Assembly: GCA_945932315.1 (NCBI GenBank)
Contig: CAMEPU010000005.1
Coordinates: forward strand, 1 to 32,077
Length of the DNA stretch: 32,077 nucleotides
Reading direction: 5' to 3'
Source: an uncultured Clostridia bacterium
GTDB taxonomy: Bacteria; Bacillota; Clostridia; Oscillospirales; Butyricicoccaceae
Shown here: one piece after another, positions 11,590 through 32,077 of the stretch
Numbering within the stretch: position 1 is the stretch's first letter
Layout of the letters: each line of letters starts with the position of its first letter
The notes under the pieces: generated by a model
Databases searched by the model: none
What the model was told of the DNA's origin: nothing
Seen by the model: the letters and a program-made list of their open reading frames with translations, nothing else
Translations under genes and position numbers: made by a program

Positions 11590-11770
11590 GAAAGAGCGTG
11601 CGAGTACCCGGGGAGGCCTCACGGACAAGGGGAGTTATTTTTACGAGCCATGGTTGAAACAAGATTTATCGTGAGGAGTCAGATGAATCCATAGTACCGC
11701 GTCAGTCGACGGACGTGGGAAGGGAGGAACCCTTGGAGGTGGTAGTAAATGAAGGTTACCGAAGTTGAGA
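11590..11770 (+). pseudogene. Probable group II intron / LtrA-type remnant
   Basis: GAGCGTGCGAGTACCCGGGGAGGCCTCACGG followed by ...REESDESIVPRQSTDVGREEPLEVVVNEG (frame of CGTGAGGAGTCAGATGAATCCATAGTACCG), reminiscent of the pre-RT region of bacterial group II introns; no RT domain present. Boundaries approximate. Confidence 0.4.
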
Positions 11771-29601: not shown

Positions 29602-30417
29602 TCAGAGCCGGTCGAGGAAGGAATGCCGCCCGGTATCGTCCCGCCAGCCGAGCACCTTTTTGGTGTCCACATTTTTGACCGCGTTCAGAATATTGGCCTC
29701 GATCTGCGGGTTCTGTGCGGCCAGTCCGGCGATCAGCGCCTTGATCTCGGCCCGCTTGGTGTCCTGCTCGCGCGCGGCCGCCGGGCAGGCGCAGGGCAGG
29801 AAGGTCAGTCCACAGTACGCCGCCCATTCCTTCACGGCGGCCTCGCGGGTGAAATAGAGCGGCCGGATGAGCTCCATCCCCTCGTAATTGGCGGCCGCCA
29901 GACGGGGCAGCATGGCCTGCACCTGGCCGCCGTACAGCAGCCCCATCAGCACGGTCTCGATTGCGTCGTCATAGTGGTGGCCGAGGGCGATCTTGTTGCA
30001 GCCGAGCGCCCGCGCCTGGGCGTACAGATTACCCCGGCGCAGTTTGGCGCACAGGAAGCAGGGGTGCTCGGGCGCGTGCCTGCCCGCGATGCGGAGGACG
30101 TCGGTCTCGAACACGGTCAGCGGCAGCCCGAGCCGCGCCATGTTTTCCTCGATGTGCCGGCGGTTCTCGGCCGGATAGCCCGGGTCCATCGCGAGAAACC
30201 GCACCTCGAAGCCGCCGCGCGCCGCGCAGTCGTCGAGCAGCAGGCCGAGCAGCGCCGAATCCTTGCCGCCCGAGATGCAGACCGCGATCCGGTCGCCCGG
30301 CCGCACCATCTCAAATTCCCGCAGCGCCCGGTTGAACGGGTTGCAGATCTGCCGTGCAAAGCGGGTGTGAACCGCCTGTAAAATTTCTTTACGCTCCATA
30401 TCTTTCCTCATTTTCAT
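29602..30417 (-). CDS. TtcA-family tRNA 2-thiocytidine biosynthesis-like ATPase (PP-loop)
   Basis: CISGGKDSALLGLLL PP-loop, CFLCAKLRRGNLYAQARALGCNKIALGHHYDDAIET; likely start at the internal MERKEILQ. Confidence 0.85.
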   Translation of the reverse strand: MKMRKDMERKEILQAVHTRFARQICNPFNRALREFEMVRPGDRIAVCISGGKDSALLGLLLDDCAARGGFEVRFLAMDPGYPAENRRHIEENMARLGLPLTVFETDVLRIAGRHAPEHPCFLCAKLRRGNLYAQARALGCNKIALGHHYDDAIETVLMGLLYGGQVQAMLPRLAAANYEGMELIRPLYFTREAAVKEWAAYCGLTFLPCACPAAAREQDTKRAEIKALIAGLAAQNPQIEANILNAVKNVDTKKVLGWRDDTGRHSFLDRL

Positions 30418-30512
30418 TGGTGAACATTTTCAGAATTTTCCACTACACGCGGACATGATTCCACACACGGAATACATTTTTGTATATAGTGACTAAATTT
30501 AGATATAACTAT

Positions 30513-30566
30513 TTATTCATTTCGTCCTATTCGCCGCTTGCAAAACCGCATACTCTGCGGTAAGAT
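30513..30566 (+). promoter_or_regulatory. Array promoter 1 with conserved upstream box
   Basis: TTATTCATTTCGTCCTATTCGCCGC + TTGCAA - 17 bp - TAAGAT. Confidence 0.8.
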
Positions 30567-30829
30567 AAAGACAGTTCAGGGAACGAAACACAGACCGCCG
30601 ATCACGAGATTTCCAGCTCCGAAGCATGGATTCACGGACGGGGGGATGGTGTGGAAGGGGGGGCGGCAAGCCCCCGCTTCCGCGATCCAATCATCGGATT
30701 TTCAAACTTTTTGAAGTTTGAAAATCCGGACGCAGCTTGGCGAAAGAATTTTCGACAGGCTGCGTTCAGGGAACTGAACCGAGAGCAAAAACAAACCACA
30801 GATTATCCCAAGAAAGGGGACCACAAATC

Positions 30830-30931
30830 ATGAAAATGTTCGATTACATCAAGGCGATTGCAGAAGTTGAGTATGAGTCCTCGCTGACTCGTCAGATCCA
30901 TAGAAATTCCGCCAACCGCAGCAAGCGCTGA
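30830..30931 (+). CDS. Small peptide 1 (33 aa), uncharacterised paralogue
   Basis: MKMFDYIKAIAEVEYESSLTRQIHRNSANRSKR; RBS AAAGGGG; same length and N-terminal pattern as two downstream ORFs. Confidence 0.75.
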   Translation: MKMFDYIKAIAEVEYESSLTRQIHRNSANRSKR

Positions 30932-31021
30932 AACCAAACGCCCGGCCATGTGCGGCGGGAAACTTCCCCCGCCTCTCTTATCATAAATCCAATCCGTTTC
31001 ATTCGTCTACTTCTTTTTAAA

Positions 31022-31056
31022 TTGTCCACTCCTTTTTCTACTTTCTACTTTCTCTT
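31022..31056 (+). repeat. CU-rich 3'UTR tract, copy 1
   Basis: TTGTCCACTCCTTTTTCTACTTTCTACTTTCTCTT, identical to the copy at 31474. Confidence 0.9.
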
Positions 31057-31062
31057 TAAGTC

Positions 31063-31094
31063 AGGGAGCCCGGCCGGATACGGTCGGGCTCTCT
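31063..31094 (+). terminator. Terminator hairpin of unit 1
   Basis: AGGGAGCCCGGCCG-GATA-CGGTCGGGCTCTCT then GGCGTTTTCC. Confidence 0.7.
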
Positions 31095-31176
31095 GGCGTT
31101 TTCCGTCCGGCACGGACAGGTGTCGCTGAGATAAAATGCTTTTTAGTGAATTATGCATAAAAACTTTTTCTATATT

Positions 31177-31230
31177 TTATTCATTTCGTCTTATTCGCCG
31201 CTTGAAAAAAGCCTGGGGCCGGAGTAAGAT
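31177..31230 (+). promoter_or_regulatory. Array promoter 2 with conserved upstream box
   Basis: TTATTCATTTCGTCTTATTCGCCGC + TTGAAA - 17 bp - TAAGAT. Confidence 0.8.
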
Positions 31231-31303
31231 AAAGACACCGTTGAGAGAACGGGCACAGCAAACGATCAGAAGTGTATCACCCGACGAAGGAGGATTCCCT
31301 GGC

Positions 31304-31405
31304 ATGCTGTTTTATGATTTTGTGCGCGCCATCGCCGATGGAAGGGTTGACGCGAATACAATTCACCGGCTCGTTCAGGAAGCCGACCTGCGCGAAAAGC
31401 GCTGA
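31304..31405 (+). CDS. Small peptide 2 (33 aa), uncharacterised paralogue
   Basis: MLFYDFVRAIADGRVDANTIHRLVQEADLREKR; strong RBS GAAGGAGG; the longer ORF call from 31136 would start upstream of the promoter and is unlikely. Confidence 0.78.
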   Translation: MLFYDFVRAIADGRVDANTIHRLVQEADLREKR

Positions 31406-31473
31406 GCGGCAACCCGACCAAATGCGGCAGACCCCCGCCGCTTTCCATATATTCTTTCTCCACCTTATTCATT

Positions 31474-31508
31474 TTGTCCACTCCTTTTTCTACTTTCTAC
31501 TTTCTCTT
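31474..31508 (+). repeat. CU-rich 3'UTR tract, copy 2
   Basis: TTGTCCACTCCTTTTTCTACTTTCTACTTTCTCTT. Confidence 0.9.
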
Positions 31509-31513
31509 AAAGG

Positions 31514-31546
31514 CGATGAGCCCGGCCGAATCGGCCGGGCTCATCG
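31514..31546 (+). terminator. Terminator of unit 2
   Basis: CGATGAGCCCGGCCGA-ATCGGCCGGGCTCATCG then TCTTTTTG. Confidence 0.85.
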
Positions 31547-31600
31547 TCTTTTTGTCGGGTTTTTGAATTGTGCAAGTATAACAAAAATACAGTTTGATTT

Positions 31601-31654
31601 TTATTTAATTCGTCTAATCTTTCGCTTGTCAAATTTATGTAAAAAGAGTAAGAT
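31601..31654 (+). promoter_or_regulatory. Array promoter 3 with (diverged) upstream box
   Basis: TTATTTAATTCGTCTAATCTTTCGC + TTGTCA - 17 bp - TAAGAT. Confidence 0.78.
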
Positions 31655-31716
31655 AGGTACAGTTCCGAGGGGAACGAAAGAAACGATAAAACACCACTTG
31701 AAAGGGGTCTTAATAT

Positions 31717-31818
31717 ATGAAGTTCTTCGAATCTCTCCAGACGCTGGCCGATATGCAGATGCAGTGCATGATGCCCGGCTATTACACCCGCAGCATCGAA
31801 AAGCGCCATCAGCGCTAA
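31717..31818 (+). CDS. Small peptide 3 (33 aa), uncharacterised paralogue
   Basis: MKFFESLQTLADMQMQCMMPGYYTRSIEKRHQR; RBS GAAAGGGG; 102 nt like the other two. Confidence 0.77.
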   Translation: MKFFESLQTLADMQMQCMMPGYYTRSIEKRHQR

Positions 31819-31892
31819 GAAAACCCCTGTTTTCTTAACCATTCCGGACAATCACGTCCGTTTTCCTTTTCTCACAAGCTGAGAAATCTCTT

Positions 31893-31914
31893 TTGTCCAC
31901 ACTCCTTTTTCTCT
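31893..31914 (+). repeat. CU-rich 3'UTR tract, partial copy 3
   Basis: TTGTCCACACTCCTTTTTCTCT, related to copies 1 and 2. Confidence 0.75.
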
Positions 31915-31923
31915 ACGAGCAGG

Positions 31924-31951
31924 CGCGCCTGACACCGCACGGTCAGGCGCG
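31924..31951 (+). terminator. Terminator of unit 3
   Basis: CGCGCCTGAC-ACCGCAC-GGTCAGGCGCG then TCTGTTCGTTTTTT. Confidence 0.85.
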
Positions 31952-32077
31952 TCTGTTCGTTTTTTAAAAGTTAATTATGCAACGGTATGAAAACGCCCGG
32001 CGCAGATGCCCGGGGGTCATAAGAAAGTAATATCGTATTTTTGCAGGAACGGCATGGCTTCGGTCATGCCGTTTCCT

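Follow-up and report, generated by a model that had tools for sequence, protein, structure and literature searches.

To our knowledge, few dual-function RNAs are known, and those compared here all come from outside Clostridia. In RNAIII/delta-haemolysin of Staphylococcus aureus, a dual-function RNA, the 3′ part is rich in pyrimidines and targets Shine-Dalgarno (SD) sequences. SR1/SR1P of Bacillus subtilis is a sigma-A-driven small RNA (sRNA) that pairs with mRNAs and encodes a 39 amino acid peptide (PMC8501984). The streptococcal csRNAs of the CiaR regulon occur as several related copies per genome with a common operator upstream of the promoter; they are non-coding and have two stem-loops, between which lies an unpaired stretch of anti-SD/anti-start sequence (PMC3091779).

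The window (the whole stretch of DNA analyzed, 32,077 nt) is one entire contig of a metagenome-assembled genome of Butyricicoccus, a gut bacterium that produces butyrate. The sequence-only reading had described three consecutive 102-nt ORFs of 33 codons with similar 3′ ends, each with its own promoter, RBS, and terminator. The ORFs and their peptides are present as described, the 3′ ends are AAGCGCTGA, AAGCGCTGA, and CAGCGCTAA for units 1, 2, and 3, and a sigma-A promoter (-35/17/-10), an RBS, and a terminator are recognizable for each ORF (Table 1). The terminator hairpins are strong in all three units. The predicted transcripts are about 310-330 nt long for units 2 and 3 and about 530 nt for unit 1, the latter being longer because a dispersed repeat sits in its leader. 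The same interruption places the unit 1 promoter about 265 nt before the ATG. The repeat is MITE-like and contains within it a perfect inverted repeat (CGGATTTTCAAACTT/AAGTTTGAAAATCCG), and a short near-duplicate, GTTCAGGGAAC, lies around it at 30574 and 30764. Elsewhere in the window, a fragment at 11646-11725 (+) matches the Rfam group-II-D1D4-1 intron model with 36.7 bits, barely over the gathering score.

Table 1. Features of the three tandem units and the neighboring gene (window coordinates)
Feature	Coordinates	Strand	Details
TtcA-like tRNA 2-thiocytidine synthetase	29602..30417	-	divergent neighbor, marks the syntenic site
Unit 1 control region	30512..30566	+	26-nt box TTTATTCATTTCGTCCTATTCGCCGC 30512-30537; -35 TTGCAA; 17 nt; -10 TAAGAT 30561-30566
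Dispersed repeat in unit 1 leader	30629..30766		about 10 copies in host genome
Unit 1 ORF	30830..30931	+	33 aa, MKMFDYIKAIAEVEYESSLTRQIHRNSANRSKR
Unit 1 CU tract	31026..31054	+	CCACTCCTTTTTCTACTTTCTACTTTCTC
Unit 1 terminator hairpin	31060..31097	+	
Unit 2 control region	31176..31230	+	box 31176-31201; -35 TTGAAA; 17 nt; -10 TAAGAT
Unit 2 ORF	31304..31405	+	33 aa, MLFYDFVRAIADGRVDANTIHRLVQEADLREKR
Unit 2 CU tract	31478..31506	+	same as unit 1 tract across 29 nt
Unit 2 terminator hairpin	31509..31551	+	
Unit 3 control region	31600..31654	+	box 31600-31625; -35 TTGTCA; 17 nt; -10 TAAGAT
Unit 3 ORF	31717..31818	+	33 aa, MKFFESLQTLADMQMQCMMPGYYTRSIEKRHQR; orthologue of sister-species peptides
Unit 3 CU tract	31895..31916	+	GTCCACACTCCTTTTTCTCTAC; CTCTAC in common with sister tract
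Unit 3 terminator hairpin	31915..31960	+	

With the TtcA-like gene as an anchor, we located the site in relatives. All five sister species (loci L110-L114) have one homologous unit upstream of ttcA, divergent from the TtcA-like gene, whereas the window species has three in tandem. In the five sister loci the next gene after the unit is alpha/beta hydrolase-like and convergent. Four of these loci (L110, L111, L113, and L114) have a 5S rRNA past the hydrolase-like gene, on the array side, and the end of a 23S rRNA is also found on this side in L110 and L113. The sister contigs break close to the array locus. The window contig ends 3′ of unit 3, probably because rRNA lies on the array side, as in four of the sister contigs.

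Peptides of 33-35 amino acids are encoded at the site in four of the five sister species (MKFARFLNSLAQAQLTCYAPGVSIYDRYRPRTK and others), and strain ET57 has two such ORFs on one transcript. Among sister orthologue pairs, to which the window copies are tied by homology only, Nei-Gojobori counts put dN/dS at about 0.12, 0.15, and 0.18 where the unit lies next to ttcA. At an unlinked locus, next to a phosphate permease-like gene, the value is 0.19. The synonymous excess is significant for each Butyricicoccus pair (Fisher p 1e-3 to 4e-5). Thus, the reading frames are kept by purifying selection in the sister species. An HMM of the sister peptides scores window peptide 3 higher than any of 4973 random small ORFs (rank 0); copies 1 and 2 rank 62 and 408 and are not outstanding. 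The peptide beside the permease-like gene is likewise linked by this HMM. Copy 3 is a clear orthologue of the sister peptides. Copies 1 and 2 represent paralogues that have diverged, and it is their promoter, position, and tail that place them in the family, rather than their sequence score.

The proposal of a small-peptide family without a named match is borne out: the frames are present in the sister species, with dN/dS in close orthologues at about 0.1-0.2 rather than near 1, and the peptides have no match above the curated cut-offs in Pfam, NCBIfam, or PHROGs. Other details of that proposal need revision. The length is fixed at 33 amino acids within the window but not among the sisters, and the shared N-terminal pattern is weak by itself, finding copy 3 but not copies 1 and 2 in the ranking above. 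The amphipathic head is modest. What was described as a hypervariable remainder is paralogue divergence, as close orthologues are 76% identical.

PADLOC, searched with the window peptides plus a single peptide from a sister species, gave no matches, and a sub-threshold similarity of peptide 3 to DUF760 (19 versus a cut-off of 20.2 bits) was judged to be chance. A family-wide search with an HMM of the three window peptides found only weak and unconvincing matches outside the window, a DNA similarity search found no convincing homologue beyond the host genome, and a search for related loci with the peptide alignment found none. Large microbiome small-ORF catalogues such as GMSC (PMC11364881) may already include some of the peptides, with no function assigned. 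A census of 800 kb of B. pullicaecorum identified six isolated tiny genes, including the paralogue beside the permease-like gene, so such genes are rare.

The three promoters have a 26-nt box directly upstream of the -35 element and a common fixed geometry (box, N11, TTG, N19, GTANNNT). In the host genome this pattern occurs only at the three units, and the reversed-pattern control gave 0 matches. Across 87 genomes of the family, the geometry with no mismatch is confined to these units and one unlinked unit in genome G002; allowing up to two mismatches also recovers the B. pullicaecorum orthologue of the latter. Isolated tiny ORFs (33-43 amino acids) with a box-like promoter at 1-2 mismatches were found in other genera of the family (L259, L266, and L271). 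Their peptides are dissimilar to the family, and we regard them as leads, not members. Most remaining matches in the family at 1-2 mismatches precede ordinary genes, as do matches outside the family with at most one mismatch.

The sequence-only reading covered the peptide half of the locus and missed the RNA half. A CU-rich, anti-SD-like tract is located before the terminator, and across the sisters the ORF is less conserved than either the box or this tract (identity 0.94 for the box, 0.92 for the tract, 0.79 for the ORF, 0.56 for the spacer, and 0.55-0.60 for the flanks). The tract core is identical at 28 of 28 nt in five species. In a collection of 85,462 species, the exact 28-nt pattern occurs in five records, all Butyricicoccus and including B. 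pullicaecorum DSM 23266. Rfam covariance models have no match at or above the gathering score over these units.

The two halves also occur apart. One sister species (G001, locus L114) retains the promoter, tract, and terminator, and the ORF is gone. At the same ttcA site, a second genus (g9) has, in six genomes, an RNA of about 138 nt that lacks the ORF and consists of the box, an A-rich leader, a 5′ hairpin with compensatory changes, a CU tract, and a terminator. The tract is an invariant 31 nt (GCUCAUAUCACCUCUUUUCUCUUCUUCUCAG) in all six genomes, with a predicted mean unpaired probability of 0.78-0.93, and resembles the anti-SD tail of 16S rRNA (AUCACCUCCUUUCU). Three of these genomes contain a 15-codon ORF without an SD, and the frame is not maintained in the other three. 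Conversely, the unlinked paralogue beside the phosphate permease-like gene (pit) in G002 and B. pullicaecorum has the box and a 35 amino acid peptide (MKKNFSNFL...) and no CU tract. In a further genus (g14, loci L124 and L125), a 29 amino acid ORF (MFRLISPDVIDAELQVQGTLMRLRSKKGK) that is under selection (dN/dS of about 0.1) lies at the same ttcA-divergent site, and the leader in L125 is unusually long. No similarity to the Butyricicoccus peptides was detectable in the g14 peptides.

The predicted affinity of the CU tract for SD regions is good (200 gene starts). At these gene starts, the tracts of the window and of Butyricicoccus equal composition-matched shuffles and give no sequence-specific target signal; the affinity therefore reflects CU content, not order. 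The second-genus tract beats 38 of 40 shuffles. In folded transcripts (unit 1 with the dispersed repeat omitted), the predicted pairing of the unit's own SD with the tract is 0.59-0.88 in six of seven units. Unit 3 has a shorter tract and poor own-SD pairing (0.12). This cis pairing is mostly equalled by shuffled tracts, with the exception of unit 1.

On balance, and with modest confidence, we think that each unit is a dual-function sRNA/mRNA gene that was triplicated in the window species. A short unit with its own promoter and terminator is found in the sequence, a small ORF under selection in the sister orthologues, and a candidate pairing region conserved apart from the ORF in the tract, the base-pairing itself being predicted. 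A putative regulator would drive the sigma-A promoter from the box, to which it would bind at about -36 to -61. The transcript would encode the selected 33-35 amino acid peptide and terminate with the CU tract and terminator. In trans, the tract may pair with purine-rich SD regions of other mRNAs. In cis, it could mask the SD that precedes its own ORF, so that an RNA would either be translated or base-pair. After the triplication, the peptides would have diverged. The sequence shows the anatomy, the synteny, frame selection in sisters, a box and a tract that are conserved independently, and RNA-only and peptide-only relatives; expression, a regulator, target base-pairing, cis occlusion, and peptide action are inferred.

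The main rival is a purely cis role, in which the units are plain small-protein mRNAs and the tract acts only within its transcript, by covering the unit's SD or by shaping the 3′ end, and has no targets in trans. Purifying selection on the frames, the SD-tract pairing predicted within the transcript, and the unlinked paralogue that makes a peptide without a tract all fit this reading. We disfavor it and consider it unlikely because ORF-less relatives (the six g9 genomes and sister G001) keep a perfectly conserved tract.

It is improbable that the units encode precursors of secreted signal or bacteriocin-like peptides. The peptides are short, mostly basic, and tandem, with diverged paralogues, as such precursors might be, but no member has a hydrophobic run of more than five residues and the unit 1 and unit 2 peptides have no cysteine. 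By eye, we recognized no dedicated exporter or receptor beside the units, and the library matches include no bacteriocin or signal-peptide family. We give very little credence to pure non-coding sRNAs with fortuitous ORFs: orthologues without the ORF exist and tract conservation exceeds that of the ORF, but the dN/dS values of 0.12-0.19 (with the Fisher p values above), the retained SD, and the peptide without a tract at the unlinked paralogue strongly disfavor this. Type I toxin genes, suggested by tiny ORFs, individual promoters, and tandem copies, are just as improbable given the absence of a single hydrophobic membrane-spanning segment, of a recognizable antisense antitoxin gene, and of more than a single unit at the site in each sister species. 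Leader-peptide attenuation was rejected, as every unit ends in a terminator and the gene that follows it in the sisters is convergent.

The dual-function reading may extend to a modular family, in which one box drives RNA-only, peptide-only, or combined genes in related gut bacteria. The combined form would be multiplying in the window species, with diversification of the peptides but not of the RNA tail or the operator. We propose this wider reading tentatively, at a little less than an even chance. The locus offers natural experiments, with the ORF lost in one species, the tract absent in one paralogue, and triplication in another species, and these variants allow genetic separation of RNA and peptide functions. 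The genus contains a cultured species, B. pullicaecorum.

Compared by description only, RNAIII is longer than the array units and is unrelated in sequence and peptide. The ORF-less g9 RNA is like the csRNAs in its two-stem-loop layout, with CAUAUCACCUC. The CiaR direct repeat (TTTAAG-N5-TTTAAG) is absent, the box here being TTTATNYATTTNGTM, and the ORF of the selected family in the window units has no counterpart in the csRNAs, which are non-coding. By the features tested, the array units are not csRNAs. The peptide differs from SR1P, and a sequence relation to SR1 is unrecognizable as judged by the lack of an Rfam match alone. Like SR1/SR1P, the units have a sigma-A promoter and combine a peptide and proposed pairing on one RNA; unlike it, they are in tandem, and the proposed pairing region is the CU tract adjoining the terminator.
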